A DNA stretch of 64,000 nt from Periplaneta americana (lineage: Eukaryota > Arthropoda > Insecta > Blattodea > Blattidae): contig NC_091127.1 of assembly GCF_040183065.1 (NCBI RefSeq), positions 23,740,391-23,804,390 on the forward strand, given 5' to 3'. The notes beneath the pieces were generated by a model that was given only the letters and a program-made list of their open reading frames with translations, made no database searches and was not told the origin of the DNA. Of the stretch, positions 18,126-58,100 are shown one piece after another (the stretch's first letter is position 1; every line of letters begins with the position of its first letter). Made by a program: the position numbers and the translations under genes.

Positions 18126-21100
18126 TTGCTGTGTCTAATTTTTTTCTTTTGCAATGGTGAAGAGAGAAGAGCAACGAAAATTTAAACTGTGCATATTACA
18201 CAGAATTAAATGTAAAAAAATCTATATATTATTTAGCCGATTTAGCGACACATTAACCAAAGATGACAAAATTAATGGTTGGAAAGAAATAACTGAATAT
18301 GGAAAATCAATTTGAGCAGTTCTATTGTCTAGGAGGAGGCAGTGGTAAGTCTTCATCTAAAGGATTCAAAACTAGATAATTAGGCCGTGTCCCAAAGCTA
18401 TATTTACAGCTGAAGTAAACTAGGTAGTTGACTAAATAGCCGGATATGACGTCAGAAGTCATGATTCAAAGCTACATAATTTATAGGAAACAAGTCCACA
18501 GTAACTAGTGAACAAAAATACTTGCTTGACTGATGACTTGTACATTAAGCAAACATGGATGCCTCATCAGCAATTGGAGCTATGAAATCTGAAGATGCTT
18601 TGGAAGTAAACTACAGAACAATATGTTAACATTAACCTTCAACATTGACATTGCTACTCTGGTACCTTCTATACATTTTTTAAATATTGTAATATTTTAG
18701 GTTGTGATCTTTTTCACTTAACCCGTAATGAAACTGCACAGGGGCAATTTCTCAGGGCATGCTATGCTTGCGTGGACAAATTATTAGCAAAATTGAAGAT
18801 TTTTTTATATATATTTTTACAAAATATGATTCTTCAATTTAGACTACAGTTGACATTTTTACGTATTTCCAAATTATTAGCAAAATTGAAGATTTGTATT
18901 GTACATTTTTAGAAAATTTAACTCTTCAATTTGGACTACATTTGATATTTTTTCATATTTACAAATTATTAGCAAAACTGAAGATTTTTATTATATATTT
19001 TTACAAAATTCGATTCTTCAATTTGGAATACAGTTGACATTTTGGATATTTCCAAATTATTAGCAAAACTGAAGATTTTTATTTTATAGTTTTACAAAAT
19101 TAGACTCTTCAATTTAGACTGTAGTTGACATTTTTGTTAATTTACAAATTATTAGCAAAATTGAAGATTTTTATTATATATTTTTACAAAATTTAACTCT
19201 TTAATTTGAACTACAGTTGAAATTTTTGCATATTTCTGTATACTGTAATGATAGAAATATGCAAAATTGTCAACTGTACGGTAGTCGAAATTGAAAAGTC
19301 AAATTTTGTAAACAGAATTATCATAAAAATCGTCAATTTTGTTAATAATTTGTCCACGTCTGTACCATCCGCAGGTTTCACACCGCAAGTATCGCAAAGC
19401 TTGCTCGTTTCTCGGAGCTACAGGAAAGACGTAGAAATAGCGAGAATATGATGTGCGCGCAAGTGCCTTCCTCCTTGGTCCGTCCTAGGTGCACATGCTT
19501 CTGTTATGTGTTGTTTGAAGCTCTGGTCCGAGAGCTACACCAACGACTATTTAACGTTACCCAGAGCAGTATTGACAGCGGGAATGTGCTGTGATTTGCG
19601 AGTGCAATGTAATTGTATGAGCGGAATGCATGTGTTAGCTGCTGCATGTATTATTAATTCTTAAACATTAATTTGGAGTATTGCAATGAGTTCGGAATTG
19701 TGTGTTACTGAAACCTTATTATTAAATCCATTTTCCCGAAGGACTATTCAAGAGAAGACAGACATTATAGAGAATATGTGCGCTCGTTCAGTGCAGCTCA
19801 ATACAACAATGTGCACTGGTTGGCAGGATCGAAAAAAAAAACTAAATAAACTGTTTTGTTGGCCATTTTTGTTATATTATATCGAACTTCTACATCTGAT
19901 AAGCGAATATGATCCATGACTCATAATGATTTCATAATTATAAAATAAATTATTTATGTGGGTCTGATTATTTTTATTAATTATGAATTATATCCTCCCA
20001 TCTTCCCCTATGAATAAAAGAGCAAGCCTAACTTTCGTGACTAGCATTCGCCCCTGAAACTGCATTAGGACACTGCCTTCTTAATTCAGTGCTGCACTGT
20101 GATGTCATACTTTTGAGAAAAATAATCTATGAAGGCCACGAGTCAAGTATACATGTCCAAAGCTCTCTAGTGAAGTTTACTAGTCAGCTAGTTCCTAGTA
20201 ACTGTGTGTAGTATGGACTTGAGCTTTGAGACACGGCCTAAATCATGATTTAGTTTACTGTTATTGACTACAAAGTAACCTCACTAATAATCTGTAATAA
20301 TGGGTGAATGCAAATTAATAGAAAAACTAATAATATTAGTTTCAGTTTTGCAATGAGAGCTTCTAAATTTCACTAATAATATTAGCATTTTACTAGTAAT
20401 TTGTGAGTTTTCTTCTTAGCATTATGCAACAGAATTAATATTCTACAAATTACAAATCACAAGTAAATTTACTAATATTATTAGTTTGTAAATTATTACG
20501 CAGCAGAGCCCAGCAAGGTACTCCTAATATTATTAAAATATAATAAGATCCAGATAAATGTCAGGAGGTATCACTGTAAAACAGTACACTCTATTTTTTT
20601 TTCATGGAGTGCAGTTTCATAGAAAGGACTTTGCCAACAGACCTTCTACTGCGCCCTACTAATTGGTTGTCATAAATAATTGTCTTCCTTACTGTGACGG
20701 AAATCTTGTCTTCTCTTGTTAGTAACCACCAATCATAACCCTCGTTCAGAAGAATTGGCAGGCTCCCCTCAAATCCACGTGGAGGCAGAGTTACCGCATC
20801 TTTTTCAAATTCCAAGAATCCTGTCAGTCTCACTGTTTCATTTCGAAGGTCACCAGGATTATGGCAACTATGAAATGTTGAGACGAGGGGACAGGATGGA
20901 ATTGTCAGCGGTGTTTGTGTAGGAAGTTATAAATCTGTAAGTGGGCGTTCAAAGGAGCCACCGAATTGCACTCCTTGAAATAAAATAGAGTATACCCGTA
21001 AATACTCTTCCCAAAACTTCCTAAGAACCAGTCTCTAGCACTATACATTACATCTCATGACCAGCCTCATGGTCTAGTGGTCAGAGCTTCTGGCTATAAT

Positions 21101-30100: not shown

Positions 30101-33100
30101 CTCTGAAACTACTGAATCAATTTACATGAAACTTTTACAGTGTTTTCTGCAGCCTGTGTTCTACATATTACACCTACGGGTTTAAGATTATCACACACAT
30201 AACACGAGAAAAAATGTATATAGATTGAACAAAATTATAAAAAAATGTTAAGCAAAGTTCAGTATTTTTTTCTGTTTCACTAGAGATGAAATATTTAACT
30301 AAATTTTGCTTTAGAATTTACAATACACATTACTAGATAATTTTAAAAAGTACAAGGCATATGAGAGAAGATTGTAGCAAGTAATGTGCACCTGAAGAAT
30401 CAGATACACTTAGCAACGTGGGAAAACACGTAATCAGTTAGGACCTTTCTTTTGCACTTGGATACGAAACTAATTAGTTGTCTTTTATACCACTTAATTC
30501 AAAATGATTGATTGTGTAAGCCTGGAAATTTTTATTCCATTCTGACCACTAGAAGCCTAGAAATACTGAACTAAACTTTTGTATTGAAATTTTTTAATCG
30601 CACAAGCACCACACCCAGCTCCCTTAACTCTATTAAATATAGAATATAATCTAAATTTAACAGAAGAAATACTGAAATCAGAAGTAAACACTGAAATACT
30701 GAAAAAATTGTCTTTAGAGACAGTTAATATTAGGTACCCTCCACAAAACTGGCTTCATTTATACACTGACGGATCCTTGATCTCCAGAGAACAAGGTGCC
30801 GGTGCAGGTGTTACGTGCTGTCTCTTCTCACTTTATAGATCACATGGATATGGTACAACAAGTTTTGATGGTGAAATCATTGCAATAAGTGAATGTCTCA
30901 GGAATCTTCTATGCCACATCAATAAATTTAGGAATGCAGTTATATTGTCAGACTCCAAAGCAGCTATTCTAGCAATCGTCTCTAAACACACACCTTCATC
31001 TCAAACAGCAGAAATAACTAAAATGCTCTCTCAATTAATATCACTCAATAAAAGAATTGTATTCCAATGGATACCATCCCATTGTAGAATCCTGGGAAAT
31101 GAGAATGCGGATACTTTAGCAAAGAAGGGCAGCACTGCTACTTACAGACCTGTTACTAAATCTACGTATTACTGTGTGAAGAGATTTATTAAATCTACAT
31201 ACTTAGACTTCAACAAACAAAATATTTGATAACACAATCTCAAGGGAAAAAATGGAACTCTCTGCATCATAATCCACAGTTAATTCCCGATTTACCACGA
31301 AAATCGTCTGTAGCTGCATTTAGATTGGCAACAGGCCATGATTGTTTGGCCAAACACCTGCATAGAATTGGAATATATCAGTCCCCTAACTGCCCATTGT
31401 GCAACTCAAACCAAGAAATTGATTCGGAACACCTCAAAATCTGTGCTTCATTGGCTGGTCATGATAATATCTTTGAAAAATATTGGAGTGCAAGAGGTCA
31501 AATGACTTTATTGTCAAACGCCTGGCATTAGAAAACAACAACATATTTATATAAATGACTTACCCTCCCAATTAGAGGAATCAAACATGAAAACAGCACT
31601 ATTTGCAGATGATATAGTTTTGTGGACTTCCGGATCTTACAGACATAGAGACAAAATTCAAAATTCTGCTCTTAAAGCTCTAAATCATCTACATGAATGA
31701 AATACATCAAATTTGATGACACTCAATTTAAGCAAAAGTAACTACCAAATATTTTCACACGGTAAAAAAGAAAGAGAATTCAATATCCAATACAATGGCC
31801 AACACCTTCCTAGGACTTATGAATCCAAATATCTTGGAGTTATTTTCGGTAGTAAGTTAACATGGAGCAACCATTTGAAATACATTTCTGAAAAAGCTCG
31901 TAAAAGATTCTCCCTTCTAAAGAGACTAGCAGGAAAGAAATGGGGATGCTCTAGGAATACTTTGAACACTACATACAAAATGTTTATACAGCCAGTGCTG
32001 ACATACTGCGGAGAAATGTTAATTACTTCATCTTTCATAAACGACATAGAATATGTTCAAAACCAAGCTCTCAGACTCATTACTGGTGGAATCAAAACAA
32101 CTCCAATAGATTCTATGAGATTCCTCACTAATATTAACAGTATCAAAATGACAATACAAGAAAAAGCACTGATTCAATATGAAAAACTTATCAGATTACC
32201 AGGAAACAATTGGCATTCATACAGTCCTCTCTGTAGATTGAAAACTCAAAAAAGTTTCATATCCATTATTCAAGAATTAAAACAGAAAATCAATATCCTG
32301 AATTTAAAAGAAAACTTACAAATTAAACCAAACCCTTTAACTCTATTAATATAGAATATAATCTAAATTTAACAGAAGAAATACTGAAATCAGAAGTAAA
32401 CACTGAAATACTGAAACAATTGTCTTTAGAGACAGTTAATATTAGGTACCCTCCACAAAACTGGCTTCATTTATACACTGACAGATCCTTGATCTCCAGA
32501 GAACAAGGTGCCGGTGCAGGTGTTACGTGCTGTCTCTTCTCACTTTATAGATCACTTGGATACGGTACAACAAGTTTTGATGGTGAAATCATTGCAATAA
32601 GTGAATGTAACAGGAATCTTCTATGCCACATCAATAAATTTAGGAATGCAGTTATATTGTCAGACTCCAAAGCAGCTATTCTAGCAATCGTCTCTAAACA
32701 CACACCTTTATCTCAAACAGCAGAAATAACTAAAATGCTCTCTTAATTAATATCACTCAATAAAAGAATTGTATTCCAATGGATACCATCCCATTGTAGA
32801 ATCCTGGGAAATGAGAATGCGGATACTTTAGCAAAGAAGGGCAGCACTGCTACTTACAGACCTGTTACTAAATCTACGTATTACTGTGTGAAGAGATTTA
32901 TTAAATCTACATACTTAGACTTCAACAAACAAAATATTTGATAACTGAATCCCAAGGGGAAAAAATGGAACTCTCTGCATCATAATCCACAGTTAATTCC
33001 CGATTTACCACGAAAATCGTCTGTAGCTGCATTTAGATTGGCAACAGGCCATGACTGTTTGGCCAAACACCTGTATAGAATTGGAATATATCAGTCCCCT

Positions 33101-41700: not shown

Positions 41701-44700
41701 GTTTGTGACAGCTTCCCTGCCACAGCCTGCTGCCTGCAAAGCAAGCACACACACACGCACATCATAACCATTTTGCCCACCTCCATACCCAAAAGCAACT
41801 CTACTAAGTTTATGTATGTCAAATATATCTCTTACCTCAATTTTTCCATTATAATATTAAACAATACATAATACATTTTACTATACATAGGGCCAGTTGT
41901 ATAAAGCGTTTGAACCGAGATTAAGGGTTAAAATGGCCGCCAATCAAGTTGAACCAGATTTCCTGTTGTATAAATGCTAATCTAAGTTCATGTTACCTAC
42001 GAGGCGCGTCCATAAAGTAACTTTCCCACTCGTCCCACAGCTAGCAAACCATATGTTGCACGAAGCGACTGCGTGTACGTGATAGAGTAACGTCCTGGCA
42101 TACGCTAGCGGAACTTCCCGAGTGCTCTCAGTAGCTTCGTTGCATTGGTTGAAGATGGACGTTCCTATTCCAGCTCCCGCCACGTGTGAAGTGCGATCAG
42201 TGATAAAGTTTTTGAATGCACAGGCATAGCGCCGATTAAAATTTATCGTCAGCTGTGCCAGGTCTATGGGCAAGCAGATGGTGCGTTGCTGCTGTAGACA
42301 ATTTTCAGCAGGATGCCAAAATATGCATGACGAGGAGCGCAGTGGGAGGCCAACCATCATCACTGACGATCTTGTGGAGCAACGCACCATCTACTTGCTC
42401 ATGACCAGGACCTCCTATATTACCGGACCTGACACTGGCATCCAAGATGGCGGCCAGAAGAGGGCTTTCGTAGATTGCAAAGAGTTAAAATAAATACGGC
42501 ATCGATAAGATTATTTTAACAAAATTCTCAATGAAACAATAAATAATAAAGTTCCTTACCTACATAAATGAAGATAGTGCATTCAGTAACATAAAAATAA
42601 GCCTACATATACACCAATAATAAAAGAAAGCAAGTGATTAAAAGCTGCAATATGTTATTATATTAGGTCTAGGCCTATATGATTTTATATATGAATATTG
42701 GCAATTGCCCAATTGACTCTTGTAAAATTCAGATTTGTGAGGAAACAGAAGGCAGTAATACAATACTGAATAACTGCTACTTCAGGATTTAGGAAATCTT
42801 ACCTGAATTATACAAATAGATTTCATCAGCAACTGGAAATTATATAATATGGAGTCCTGTCTTCCTAGTCACTACACTTTGTCACTGTATTCACTGAGAT
42901 TGGTTGAAAATAAAGCTAGCTATTCACTGCGTACAGTTTAACACTGTGCCCACTGATGTTGATTTAGAATGATATGGTACTATTCACTGTAGTTTCTCAC
43001 TGTATCCACTTGTGTTGATTCAGAATGAAATGACACTATTCACTGTAGTTTCTCACAATATCCATTGATGTTAATTCAGAATGACACTATTCACTGTAGT
43101 TTCTCACTATATCCACTGATGTTGATTCAGAATGAAATGGCACTATCCACTGTAGTTTCTCACTATATCCACTGATGTTGATTCAGAATGAAATGACGCT
43201 ATTCACTGTAGTTTCTCACTATATCCACAGATGTTGATTCAGAATGAAATGACACTATTCACTGTAGTTTCTCACTATATCCACTGATGTTGATTCAGAA
43301 TGAAATGACACTATTCACTGTAGTATCCACTGATGCTGATTTAGAATGAAATGACACTATTCACTGTAGTTTCTTACTATATCCACTGATGTTGATTCAG
43401 AATGAAATGACACTATTCAGTGTAGTATCCACTGATGCTGATTTAGAATGAAATGACACTATTCACTGTAGTTTCTTACTATATCCACTGATGTTGATTC
43501 AGAATGAAATGACACTATTCACTGTAGTATCCAATGATGCTGATTTAGAATGAAATGACACTATTCACTGTAGTTTCTCACTATATCCATTGATGTTGAT
43601 TCAGAATGAAATGACACTATTCACTGTTGTATCCACTGATGCTGATTTAGAATGAAATGACACTATTCACTGTAGTTTCTCACTGTATCCACTGATGTTA
43701 ATTCAGAATGAAATGACACTATTCACTGTAGTTTCTCACTGATGTTAATTCAGAATGAAATGACACTATTCACTGTAGTTTCTCACTATATCCACTGATG
43801 TTGATTCAGAATGAAATGACACTATTCACTGTAGTATCCACTATATCCACTGATGTTAATTCAGAATGAAATGACACTATTCACTGTAGTTTCTCACTAT
43901 ATCCACTGATGTTAATTCAGAATGACACTATCACTGTAGTTTCTCACTATATCCACTGATGTTGATTCAGAATGAAATGACACTTTTCACTGTAGTTTCT
44001 CACTATATCCACTGATGTTGATTCGGAATGAAATGACACTATTCACTGTAGTATCCACTATATCCACTGATGTTAATTCAGAATGAAATGACACTATTCA
44101 CTGTAGTTTCTCACTATATCCACTGATGTTAATTCAGAATGACACTATCACTGTAGTTTCTCACTATATCCACTGATGTTGATTCAGAATGAAATGACAC
44201 TTTTCACTGTAGTTTCTCACTATATCCACTGATGTTGATTCAGAATGAAATGACACTATTCACTGTAGTTTCTCACAATATCCACTGATGTTAATTCAGA
44301 ATGACACTATTCACTGTAGTACCCACTGATGCTGATTTAGAATGCAATGCCACTATTCACTGTAGTTTCTCACTATATCCACTGATGCTGATTCAGAATG
44401 AAATGACACTATTCACTGTAGTATCCACTGTATCCACTGATGCTGATTTAGAATGAAATGACACTATTCACTGTAGTTTCTCACTATATCCACTGATGTT
44501 GATTCAGAATGAAATGACACTATTCACTGTAGTATCCACTATATCCACTGATGTTAATTCAGAATGAAATGACACTATTCACTGTAGTTTCTCACTATAT
44601 CCACTGATGTTAATTCAGAATGACACTATCACTGTAGTTTCTCACTATATCCACTGATGTTGATTCAGAATGAAATGACACTTTTCACTGTAGTTTCTCA

Positions 44701-47700
44701 CTATATCCACTGATGTTGATTCAGAATGAAATGACACTATTCACTGTAGTTTCTCACTATATCCACTGATGTTAATTCAGAATGACACTATTCACTGTAG
44801 TATCCACTGATGCTGATTTAGAATGCAATGCCACTATTCACTGTAGTTCCTCACTATATCCACTGATGCTGATTCAGAATGAAATGACACTATTCACTGT
44901 AGTATCCACTGTATCCACTGATGGTGATTTAGAATGAAATGACACTATTCACTGTAGTTTCTCACTATATCCACTGATGTTGATTCAGAATGAAATGACA
45001 CTATTCACTGTTGTATCCACTGATGCTGATTTAGAATGAAATGACACTATTCACTGTAGTTTCTCACTGTATCCACTGATGTTAATTCAGAATGAAATGA
45101 CACTATTCACTGTAATTTCTCACTATATCCATTGATGTTAATTCAGAATAAAATGACACTATTCACTGTAGTTTCTCACTATATCCACTGATGTTGATTC
45201 AGAATGGAATGACACTATTCACTATAGCTTATCACTGTAATATCCACTTATACATAGACCTACACAAGGGATTAGATAGGCTGTACAACTAAAAACAATG
45301 AAGAATTCACAGTTTGGAGAGCACAGCACTGTAATTTCTCACTGTATCCACTAATGTTGATTCACAATGAAATGACACTATTCACTATAACTTATCACTG
45401 TAATATCCACTTATACATACACAAGGGATTAGATAGGCTGTACAACTAAACACAATGAAGAATTCACAGCTTGGAGAGCACAGCAGCCTATTTTTTGAAC
45501 TTGGAACACTTTCGGTGGGTTTTATTTTTGTCTTTCAATGCCTGCTTTTCATTTTGGACCTTGCAGTAATTATTAATAAATATGTTGGTCAATACCTTGC
45601 TACAATTCACTGCTAGTTTTCTTACCACTGAGTTGTTTGTTGGGGTAAAATGTTCATAATGAATGCTTCTTGTCCACTTATCCCTTAAATCTTTATCTTT
45701 TGGAAACAAAAATACGTGTACAAACGGATTTTCTTTATCGTAATTCGATTTGCAACCTGGGACACTACATGTGCGAGGCATTTTAAGATGAACAACGTAA
45801 CACTTTCAAGCTTTGTTCTCTACGAAAACAATTTATATTAATTATAATGTCACAATTCTATTAATATATACTAACTTATAAACCCTTCAATGATTACACT
45901 AGCGGCAAATGATACAAGAAACACAATAAACATTCACATGAAGTACATACACTTTCACAGTTGCGTTAACCACTCTATTGTCCACCATGTTTGTTTACTT
46001 CCGCTTACAGTGTCAGGTCCGGTAATATAGGAGGTCCTGCTCATGACATTAGGCCCATAGACCTGGCACAGCTGACAAATTTCAACTGGCGCTATGCCCT
46101 GATCGCACTTCACACGTGGCAGGAGCTGGAATAGGAGTGTCCATATTCAACCAATGCAACGAAGCTACTGAGAGCACTCGGGAAGTTCCACTAGTGCATG
46201 CGCTATGCCAGGACATTACTCTATGACGTACACGCAGTCGCTTTGTGCAACATATGGTTTGCCAGCTGTGGGACGAGTGGGAAAGTTACTTTATGGACGC
46301 GGCTCATATCTTAATCTAACAAGCAAACAATCTGATGGAGGCAGATAAAGAAGTACTTATACAAATTTTGGTCACAAGACTACAATTAGAAGGGCTGTAA
46401 AAAATAAGTTCGCCAGGGGCTGTTCACAGAAAGAAAACACAATTTCATTAGACAAATTTATTGGCACAGACATAGAAATTATTGAGCTATTTTTCAACAT
46501 ATTCCCCACCGGAATTGAGACATATGTCGTATCATGGGATCGACAGACAAGTGCAGACAGTTGTCAAATGTTGATTCTGATCCCAGAAGGCTGACTTCTA
46601 CGACACAACAACAAAAAAATTGATACCATGGTATGACAAACGTCTTAATTCCAGTGGGTGATATGTTGACAAAAAGTGCAACAATTGCTGTATCTGTTCC
46701 AATAAATCTTTCCATGCAATTGTGTTTTTTTTCTGTAAACGGCCCCAGGGAAAATCACTTTCTGGACAGCCTCGTAATTGCTGTCGATTGGCCAAAATTT
46801 TTGTTATTAACATGGTAAAAGAAAAAAATTAACTTTTTTATCTGCCCCCATCAGAATGTTTGCTTGTAAGTTTATATTTAACTCTCGAATTTTCTACAAT
46901 TAATCTCCTTGAACTCAGATCAGAAGCATTCATATTTTATATTTAACCAGTTCTAAAGCATAAAGCAAGAATTTTCGTGTAACCTGTGTACAACAACTAT
47001 ATTGAGGTGAATTGTGTCTATTTTTAATTATAGTTATTTAAATAACATCATTTGAAGGTTGTGGAGTTTATTTTGGCAGAAGTGAGGTTATGGATATCAG
47101 TAATGAGGAATGTTAGACTACATCCGAAATACAAACGTCTATTAATGTTCATCATTTAAAAATAAACAAGCATGAAATTGTTAACAATTTAATGTATTTC
47201 GATGTTATGAAAATAAATAAAATAAATGTGTAAGTAATAAGAAATGAGGTAGGTATACCTTATCGAATAATTAACTATATCGCTTTAACCCTATATACTG
47301 TATTTTCTCGAATACCCGATGGCCTCGAATAAGCCCAGCACCACATTTAGCAAAAAAAAGTTCATATAAACATACGGTCAATTTTGTTTAGTCTTTTAGT
47401 TACAGTCATTGTTTGTGGTGTAATAATATCCGTGATGATAAAGTTTAATTTACAACTTCTGTACTCTTCATATGTATTTTGAGTGACATATTGGTATATT
47501 AGATATTCCATTAGTTCTTTATATTTTTCAGCCCTCAAGTTTCCCAGAAATTGTGTCACCATGCTTCGGAAAGTATTCCATGTTCATTATCATTTAACAG
47601 TGTTACAGAATGAGTCATTGAGGAGTTTACGGATCTGAGGGTCAATAAAAAATTCCCTCCTTGATTTTATTTCCAGTGGAAATTTACACAGAAAACATTT

Positions 47701-55129: not shown

Positions 55130-58100
55130 TCAGTACGTAGCATTGTGATTTTACCCTCTTTGGTGATATCTGGTATTAGTTGCAACACTGAAGAGACGGT
55201 CAAATTAATCTTTTAGGAACTACTATTACGTGATCCTCATTATAGATGGTGCGTTGTCCCATATCAACAAACGCATTAGTCATTTTGTGTTCAGCCTTGC
55301 AGTGACATGCCACGTAGACGAATATAAACGTTTGAACTAATTCAGATAGTCGCTTGAATTTTATTATAATTAACATGAAAATCCATGATTTTATTTCAAT
55401 GTCATATGCATTTTAGTTACATCATCATAATATTATGGCAATACATTCAGATTTGATAATTCGCAAAAGTTGTAACGAATTCTATATGTAATAATTAATT
55501 ATTGTAATTTAACTTATAACTATAAGGGCTATAGATTTTAACAATCATACATATTTGCATTAGCCTATTTTATCAAGATCTAACATGTTCTATTTCATCA
55601 TTATTTATATACGGTATGTAACTTAAATATTCCAATTGACATGCACAAATTTTTACATATTGTATAATAATGCCTGAAGATGCCACTGAGGCGAAAACGT
55701 CCACAATAGAAATAACATTAAAAACAAATTATTATATGTTGTAAAATTTGTGTTTTAAGACATTTGAATGACACCATAAATCAAATTCTTTATATTGATA
55801 GATATGTTTTCGTTATCAAGATATTAAAAACGTTTTACACTCTCCTGTAAGATTGAATTTTTGGACATATGAGGTAGCTGTCCAACATGGTGTAAGTGCA
55901 TAAACTATATAACATTTACAGACATTCTGAATGATTTTGATTCAGATTGTTCTGAACTCAGCAGTTTGTACGGACTGAGAGACATTTCACATTGGTAAGG
56001 CTACACAGAAGTACACTCCACCAACATTTACTACAGAAAACATGACATAAGTTACTGTATGCAAAAATATGAGTAAGCAGAAAGGTTGCTAAAGAACTAT
56101 TTTTTCATGTACTTCCATAGAAATCTCAAAAACAGATTATAGGTACTTTGTCTTTATATTTCAAGATCAATCTCCTTAATGTATCCCACTGTTTGCTGAC
56201 AACATAAAGTCCACTACAGTCTATTTAGTTGTTCTTTTTCACGAGAAATGGGGGGTATTTTGATCAGTGTTCATTATAGATGCCTGTTGCTAGTAGCCAG
56301 AGTTGGGGTGTAGTCAATATATACTGCAGGGCTGTGTCTTCTGCAACTGATTTTAATTTACTTCTTTTGTGGTTTATGGATGAACAATATAAAAGAATGT
56401 GTTTCAGATATTCATCATGATTATTACATCACAGACAAGTAGGATTATCAGAAATGTGAAATCGATGTAGGTACAATTGTGTGACAATGTGACCTGTTCT
56501 GGATCTTGTTAAAAATGTTTGAACATGTCTGGGCAAGTTTTTGTACATTTCCAGGACATTTGGTTTCTTTTGTACAGAATGTAAAATTTTTCCTTTGTCA
56601 GAAGAGAGCCAATTGTTGATCCATAGGTTTGTAAAATGAGACTTTACTGAAGCAAAAGCATTGGATAGAGATATCACTTGAAGAGGTCTTGGTTGCAAAT
56701 ATGTTGCCTGTTTTGCAATATTATCGACTTTCTCGTTTCCAGGTATACCACAATGACTAGGTATCCACTGAAATGTTTTTTCCTTTGGAGTTCTCTTAGT
56801 TTACGTAGATGTTTCTGAATTGGAATAATTCTATGTGCATATAGGTTTGGTACATATTTAATTATATTTTCAAAAAAGTTTCATATCCATTGTTTAAGAA
56901 TTAAAACAGAAAATCAATATCCCGAATTTAAAAGAAAACTTACAAATTAAACCAAACCCTTTAACTCTATTAAATATAGAATATAATCTATATTTAACAG
57001 AAGAAATACTGAAATCAGAAGTAAACACTGAAATACTGAAACAATTGTCTTTAGAGACAATTAATATTAGGTACCCTCCACAAAACTGACTTCATTTATA
57101 CACCGACGGATCCTTGATCTCCAGAGAACAAGGTGCCAGTGCAGGTGTTACGTGCTGTCTCTTCTCACTTTATAGATCACTTGGATATGGAACAACAAGT
57201 TCTGATGGTGAAATCATTGCAATAAGTGAATGTCTCAGGAATCTTCTATGCCACATCAATAAATTTAGAAATGCAGTTATATTGTCAGACTCCAGAGCAG
57301 CTATTCTATCAATCGTCTCTAAACACACACCTTCATCTCAAACAGCAGAAATAACTAAAATGCTCTCTCAATTAATATCACTCAATAAAAGAATTGTATT
57401 CCAATGGATACCATCCCATTGTGGAATCCTGGGAAACGAGAATGTGGATGCTTGAGCAAAGAAGGGCAGCACTGCTACTTACAGACCTGTTACTAAATCT
57501 ACGTATTACTCTGTGAAAAGATTTATTAAATTTACATACTTAGACTTCAACAAACAAAATTTGATAACACAATCCCAAGGGAAAAAATGGAACTCTCTGC
57601 ATCAAAATCCACAGTTAATTCCCTATTTACCACGAAAATCGTCTGTAGCTGCATTTTGATTGGCAACAGGCCATGATTGTTTGGCTAAACACCTGCATAG
57701 AATTGGAATGTATCAGTCCCCTAACTGCCCATTGTGCAACTCAAACCAAGAAATGGATTCGGAACACCTCAAAATCTGTGCTTCATTGGCTGGTCATGAT
57801 AATATCTTTGAAAAATATTGGAGTGCAAAGAGGTCAAATGACTTTATTGTCAAACGCCTGGCATTAGAAAACAACAACAACATATTAAATATAGCCCCCT
57901 TGGAGTCAGTAAGTATGCAAATAGATTTTTCAGAAATTTGAGTATCACACTGAAGAGCAGCATCAATAGCTAGTAATTCAGTGTCAAGACTGGAGGAGGA
58001 TGAACATGGTATGAAATAACTTTCTTGATATTTTGGAATATAATACCCTGCTCCTGATGTCCCATTATTAGGATTTAGAGATCCAGTCTTTATATTTCAA

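Follow-up and report, generated by a model that had tools for sequence, protein, structure and literature searches.

A probable non-autonomous, internally deleted P-superfamily transposon of Periplaneta americana and its native 56-bp tandem array

We propose that the element at positions 42406-46039 of a 64,000-nucleotide stretch of Periplaneta americana DNA (NCBI RefSeq assembly GCF_040183065.1, contig NC_091127.1, positions 23,740,391 to 23,804,390; hereafter the window) is a non-autonomous, internally deleted member of the P superfamily that kept the tandem array native to its ancestors, and that this array has since turned over in place while the derivatives spread. Taken as a whole, we consider this account probable. 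The gene-bearing ancestor would have been about 4.06 kb long, with a transposase gene without evident intron and an array of about four to seven 56-bp units between the stop codon and the 3′ terminal inverted repeat (TIR), which is the layout found in three copies. A founding deletion, to which a shared junction points, would then have taken out about 2.6 kb of the coding sequence and retained the array, and the derivatives would have spread, moved in trans by presumed intact copies, with every jump taking the current array along to the new site. The array would grow and shrink in unit-length steps, at least partly in place (as seen in one pair of copies), presumably by unequal exchange or replication slippage. 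The least certain step is that the array may serve, beside the 3′ end, as a group of candidate secondary binding sites for the transposase (THAP).

The left TIR of the window element, CAGGACCTCCTATATTACCGGACCTGACACTG at 42406-42437, has its exact reverse complement at 46008-46039 (32 of 32 bases), and the match between the two ends stops at base 32. On both sides the element is flanked by CTCATGAC (42398-42405 and 46040-46047), an 8-bp target-site duplication (TSD). Tandem Repeats Finder (TRF) places a 56-bp tandem array at 42950-45236 (42.9 copies, score 3202), and by wraparound alignment the array spans 42865-45414. A minus-strand frame encodes a partial THAP domain (Pfam PF05485, E 9.4e-8), and the RNase H-like and helix-turn-helix (HTH) region has been lost from this copy. 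An earlier note on this DNA had claimed a perfect 32-bp TIR, an 8-bp TSD and an array of 56-bp units inside the element, and all three are confirmed, the array at 2.55 kb by wraparound alignment and the TSD for the window copy, its length being uncommon in the family. Membership of the P superfamily, also claimed there, is upheld by the THAP and RNase H-like domains of gene-bearing copies that have the same ends. The parts of the element are listed below, with the strand where one applies.

42398..42405, no strand: left copy of the 8-bp TSD, CTCATGAC
42406..42437, plus strand: left 32-bp TIR, which corresponds to the 3′ side of the transposase gene in gene-bearing copies
42438..42864, no strand: left subterminal region
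42865..45414, no strand: 56-bp tandem array that covers 2,550 bp (about 45 unit lengths) and contains internal duplications
45164..45485, no strand: two copies of a 163-bp unit, made up of the 56-bp unit and about 107 bp more, at the edge of the array that faces the gene
45488..45781, minus strand: 97-codon frame created by the deletion, which joins the N-terminal part of THAP in frame to the C-terminus of the transposase
45623..45625, minus strand: internal-deletion junction, about 2.6 kb of transposase gone
45625..45781, minus strand: 5′ remnant of the transposase gene, coding for part of the THAP domain (sequence comparison and Pfam)
46008..46039, minus strand: right 32-bp TIR, which corresponds to the 5′ side of the transposase gene
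46040..46047, no strand: right copy of the 8-bp TSD, CTCATGAC

The evidence that carries our proposal comes from the gene-bearing relatives; related frames emerged when the open frame of copy L015 was used as a protein query, with 83 of 2,128 candidates scored. L029 (C1:108789551-108793613), 4,063 bp long, has two perfect TIRs and a 7-bp TSD, and its transposase frame runs from THAP through a P-type HTH to an RNase H-like region with no intron evident from genomic sequence. The first 540 bp of the window element are 92% identical to L029 and 92-96% identical to those fetched derivatives that have the stretch. The Pfam matches of L029 are THAP PF05485 (E 1.9e-15), TNP-like RNaseH PF21787 (E 6.1e-7) and P-element HTH PF12017 (E 2.1e-4), and L015, a second gene-bearing copy of 8,518 bp with extra sequence and an open frame of 517 amino acids, matches PF21787 (E 9.8e-15) and PF12017 (E 1.6e-4). 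In both copies the PF21787 score lies above the Pfam cut-off and the PF12017 score just below it, and among PDB structures L015 matches the P transposase 6p5a (E 0.0024) and L029 matches THAP1 2ko0 (E 3.1e-9). A THAP domain at the N-terminus followed by a P-type HTH and RNase H-like region places this transposase in the P superfamily; with regard to the GTP-binding insertion domain of the superfamily, the C-terminal frame of L029 gave no Pfam match. L031 contains the second half of the gene, with no TIR in the stretch read, and L030, a fourth gene-bearing copy, has the right TIR and the gene, its left end lying farther off at C16:169360256. A further gene-bearing copy is located at C2:103293432-103298578.

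In L029, L015 and L031 the array is situated just beyond the stop codon of the transposase. These native arrays measure 376 bp in L029, 251 bp in L015 (by wraparound alignment, L015 and L020 being aligned for array length over their first 1,300 bp only) and four units in L031, or about four to seven units overall. The earlier note held that the transposase had been replaced by the satellite. We reject this, as the gene-bearing L029 already carries the array. What removed the gene was an internal deletion, and the array belongs to the 3′ subterminal part of the element that bears the gene. A further candidate, that the array is confined to deletion derivatives, was rejected as well, since L029, L015 and L031 carry it.

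The note had also called for a search for the 56-bp satellite outside the TIRs, and none was found among the candidates scored. A single array query gave 149 candidate regions, of which 40 were scored, and all 40 have at least one element end. Among these, 34 lie inside paired ends, and the other six comprise L032 (right TIR and parts of the left), L033 and L034 (both TIRs), L009 (left end), C3:81052870 (left end) and C10:32374441 (left end and right TIR). Hence none of the 40 scored regions is a free-standing satellite, a count that comes from one query of an assembly in which satellites can be under-represented. These results bear on an earlier model in which a pre-existing satellite invaded or replaced the interior of a P element. 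The window copy, viewed alone, does look like a TIR, an array, a gene remnant and a TIR, but an array that occupies this position in gene-bearing copies too is what would count against invasion, and this is what appeared in L029, L015 and L031. With an element end in every scored region there is, moreover, no outside source in view, and we regard the model as very improbable.

The deletion itself can be read from the alignment of the window element with L029, which begins at the right TIR, runs to element base 416 and resumes from L029 base 3,024 onward, about 2.6 kb of transposase being absent from the window copy. The sequence across the join is CTCAGTGGTTTGC in L029 and CTCAGTGGTAAGAAAAC in the window, and therefore the apparent splice donor is the join of the deletion, the window GTAAG having been created by the junction near 45623-45625. 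Past this apparent donor L029 continues as ...NNSVVCIKHFDSDF... with its frame still open, and so the earlier suggestion of a THAP exon 1 that ends at a splice donor is rejected. The same junction is common to 22 of the 23 derivatives read; the other, L034, has a separate deletion of element bases about 511-2,588.

As the deletion fuses the N-terminal part of THAP in frame to the transposase C-terminus in the window copy and in L018, the 97-codon frame might be taken for a KP-like repressor kept by selection. Decay of the frame across copies would count against this, and decay is what appeared: only two of the 23 derivatives (the window copy and L018) have the frame open as far as the same end, L012 and L019 overrun the usual stop, and the other 19 stop early. 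The deletion also removes the zinc-binding C-x2-H half of THAP. The frame does not look maintained, and a selected KP-like repressor, which we consider improbable in the extreme, was rejected.

The family to which the window element belongs is a large one. The window TIR has 188 matches with at most one mismatch in the 3.23-Gb genome, and its reversed control has none, so it is not a chance sequence, and the genome search proposed in the earlier note thus revealed many other copies. The left end occurs 121 times at up to two mismatches and the right end 105 times at up to three, and pairing 100 listed left ends (of the 121) with 100 listed right ends gave 85 elements of 1,401-9,963 bp (median 2,186), a set that takes in gene-bearing copies and copies with other inserts (such as L020, with a long interspersed nuclear element, LINE). 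The copies sampled come from 40 listed left-end matches (40 of 207 candidates scored) and are biased to window-like copies; the 20 fetched at 10 kb besides the window are the next-best left-end matches after it. Members of the P superfamily are known for short TIRs beginning CA and a TSD of 7 or 8 bp. Among 26 copies with both ends, a count in which L040 and L041 enter twice though they are one insertion, an exact 7-bp TSD is present in 19, a 7-bp TSD with one mismatch in one, an exact 8-bp TSD in three (the window, L018 and L021) and neither length in three (L016, L020 and L041). Short TIRs with an exact 7- or 8-bp TSD are thus seen in 22 of the 26, with one near and three with neither, and the usual length in the family is 7 bp. 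Within the open-access literature the family was not found in print.

Some neighboring observations concern how the copies are arranged and what related elements the genome holds. A stretch of about 22 kb at C1:108778230-108800222 contains three family copies, among which are the gene-bearing L029 and L035, a copy with an array. Ends on the same strand are clustered at C6:44.69-48.80 Mb, at C15:125.68 and 125.79 Mb and at C11:180.51 and 180.59 Mb, and these clusters, from which the two C6 copies L040 and L041 were read, are probably segmental duplications. L039 (C12:8800300-8805800) and related matches represent another P-type family with several open frames, whose transposase is about 31% identical; L039 has the TIR CAAGGCTATCTCTAGTAAAGGCTG and the 7-bp TSD ACTTGAC and is without the 56-bp array. 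In the four loci with distant P-type frames, L036-L039, of which only L039 had its ends located, the 56-bp array was not seen; L036 contains a 125-bp repeat pair and L039 a 100-bp ATT-rich pair.

The supposition in the earlier note that other copies may carry arrays of different length proved correct. Arrays of 310-3,554 bp, or about 5 to about 63 unit lengths, are present in 18 of the 19 derivatives with both ends, a count made without L009 (right end missing) and without the gene-bearing L015, and L018 has none. The array of L014 reaches 3,554 bp, and those of its clade mates L016 and L028 (support 100) measure 310 and 470 bp; in L020 the 792 bp found in the aligned part is a partial length, with more array beyond the LINE. 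The clade of L022, L023, L024 and L027 is young and has extra copies of the 163-bp unit. None of the 85 paired elements is about 1.1 kb long, the length expected for an array-free derivative, and longer ones like L018 could be array-free. Since other copies have very different array lengths, element movement delivers repeat arrays to new loci. Hence the satellite-seeding claim of the earlier note stands insofar as arrays are carried inside the element, but the 40 scored regions yielded no independent satellite. L009 (C3:67951129-67961128) shows a left end followed by some 650 bp of array, its right end being absent from the 10 kb read, and is a truncated or disrupted copy.

Array length might shift chiefly at transposition, via gap repair of the excision site, and such an explanation is suited to the wide variation in array length among copies at different sites and to the fact that P elements make internal deletions through incomplete repair. 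However, L040 and L041 (C6:44.69 and 44.90 Mb) share both flanks (120 bp read per side) and are therefore duplicates of one insertion that were not moved separately. They differ by 39 mismatches in 3,009 alignment columns and by array indels of exactly 224 bp (four units) and 112 bp (two units), their other indels being 10 bp or less. Thus transposition is not required, and array length can change without it, barring assembly error at these two copies. We find it unlikely that gap repair is the chief source of change, and transposition may contribute as well. Within the array of the window element, one 241-bp stretch has a 99% identical counterpart 217 bp upstream and a 98% identical one 481 bp downstream, and its best match in any other copy, at 95%, is below these. 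The mean unit distance is 0.122 within copies versus 0.188 between them, and the unit distances point to local growth superimposed on shared inheritance.

The 56-bp unit contains the motif CACT four times on one strand, with a spacing of 27, 7, 13 and 9 that, being uneven, speaks against a simple sub-repeat, and dinucleotide shuffles, counted over both strands, give an expectation of 0.9 (p 0.002). Agreement with the consensus over 365 units is 0.960 at the 16 core positions versus 0.901 elsewhere (base-stratified p 5e-5, copy-weighted p 1e-4, four-block test p 1.5e-4, rotation rank 1 of 56), and all four cores are kept in 221 of the 365. The rank of 1 recurs in four subsets, namely the units without the window (320 units, p 2e-4), those of the window only (45 units, p 0.003), those without the window and L014 (257 units, p 4e-4) and those of L015 and L029 only (10 units, p 0.005), and the units of L014 only rank 2 of 56 (63 units, p 0.03). 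As array units are related to one another, these p-values are guides only. The conservation is consistent with reiterated putative transposase (THAP) sites, as in Galileo, and such a putative cluster would explain why 18 of the 19 derivatives keep the array. More tentatively, and we are doubtful of this, the array could be a selfish amplifier in which each unit adds four putative THAP-binding CACT cores by the 3′ end, such that parasitic derivatives with longer arrays would outcompete others for transposase and, through selection at the level of transposition, the element's own cluster of binding sites would become a mobile, self-extending satellite.

Several observations weigh against our proposal. 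A fully intact transposase was not found among the copies read, the L029 gene being broken by one stop and one frameshift and the L015 THAP region being short of about 140 bp, and thus the full-length THAP transposase with the same ends for which the earlier note had suggested looking was met in gene-bearing form, in L029 and L015, but never fully intact. No array was seen in the 6.3 kb of L030 that was read, a stretch that ends before its left end. A tree of the sequence outside the array, rooted on L029, places the derivatives in a group separate from L015 (and from the outgroup) with a support of only 84. Within that group, at a support of 87 and on a long branch, sits L034 despite its own deletion; this may be due to recombined ends or to a weak tree, and a single deletion founder may be insufficient by itself. 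L034 thus reduces our confidence in the proposal. The nearest relative of a unit (n = 365) is in another copy in 140 cases, in the same copy in 103 and tied in 122, and the unit-step indels could be an artifact of misassembly in a tandem array. CACT, for its part, was chosen for testing because the Drosophila P-transposase site is AT(A/C)CACTTAA, and outside the array no CACT enrichment was found near either TIR (p 0.13-1.0), which matters because P transposase must act near the TIRs too. Finally, L018 is free of the array, yet has both ends and an 8-bp TSD.

The last two of these points, together with the indels in unit steps that separate duplicates of a single insertion and a relatedness of units that reduces the conservation p-values to guides, would also suit a neutral passenger, that is, a functionless, unstable minisatellite aboard since before the deletion in which the conservation of CACT is an accident of unit history. 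The CACT pattern is nevertheless first of 56 rotations in four unit subsets and second in L014 alone, and the array-free length of about 1.1 kb is missing from the 85 paired elements, of which longer ones like L018 could lack an array. We give the neutral passenger somewhat less than an even chance.

Elsewhere in the window, the flanks of the element at 41998-42271 and 46053-46308 are inverted copies of each other (83% over 281 aligned columns), which places the element near the center of an older, palindromic repeat. A frame in the left flank is reminiscent of a mariner transposase. There is a separate tandem array with a 92-bp period and five copies at 18777-19236, and a 19-bp tandem pair, CAGAAGTAAACACTGAAAT, occurs three times (30661-30697, 32373-32409 and 56998-57034), perhaps within copies of one repeat.

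To our knowledge, the Drosophila P element carries no tandem array. The published accounts, as far as they cover these features, show that it resembles the present family in its THAP and RNase H-like transposase, its 31-bp TIRs and its internally deleted derivatives, and that it has internal transposase sites beside the TIRs (PMC7776569); it differs in that no intron is evident in the gene described here and in that the TSD here is mostly 7 bp and that of P is 8 bp. To the extent that Galileo and Tetris are described in the sections of the literature that bear on this, the family is of the same kind as these elements, and it is distinguished by an array on one side only next to a short TIR, by a wider range of unit numbers than is described for them and by gene-bearing copies with the ancestral layout. 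Galileo likewise has a THAP transposase, 7-bp TSDs, deletion derivatives and tandem repeats near its ends that differ in number between copies (PMC3573991), and by electrophoretic mobility shift assay (EMSA) its THAP domain binds sites within two of the four Galileo-G repeats (PMC3688188). As described, however, the Galileo repeats lie within long TIRs and in subfamily F of D. mojavensis are about 210 bp with two to three copies, whereas the long, internally repetitive TIRs of Galileo have no counterpart in the present family, where end identity stops at 32 bp, the array, of 56-bp units, lies at one end only and the longest array read has about 63 unit lengths. Tetris, a foldback element of Drosophila virilis with variable tandem repeats (TIR-220) inside a DNA transposon, provides the other comparison, and its authors propose a succession in which the gain of THAP-site repeats may at first increase transposition, after which larger arrays could develop toward a satellite (PMC4079207). 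In the relevant part of that account the repeats are TIR-220 units inside the TIRs and the transposase-coding element of Tetris was not found (PMC4079207), whereas the family here has known gene-bearing copies and no free satellite among the 40 scored regions (40 of 149 candidates).

How satellites originate and spread is not settled, and one source that has been proposed is mobile elements with internal repeats. The family presented herein offers a natural series within one genome, from a short native array through a shared deletion to arrays of about 5 to about 63 unit lengths, in which duplicates of single insertions separate change in place from change at transposition, and it offers a testable motif, CACT, for why such arrays may be kept.

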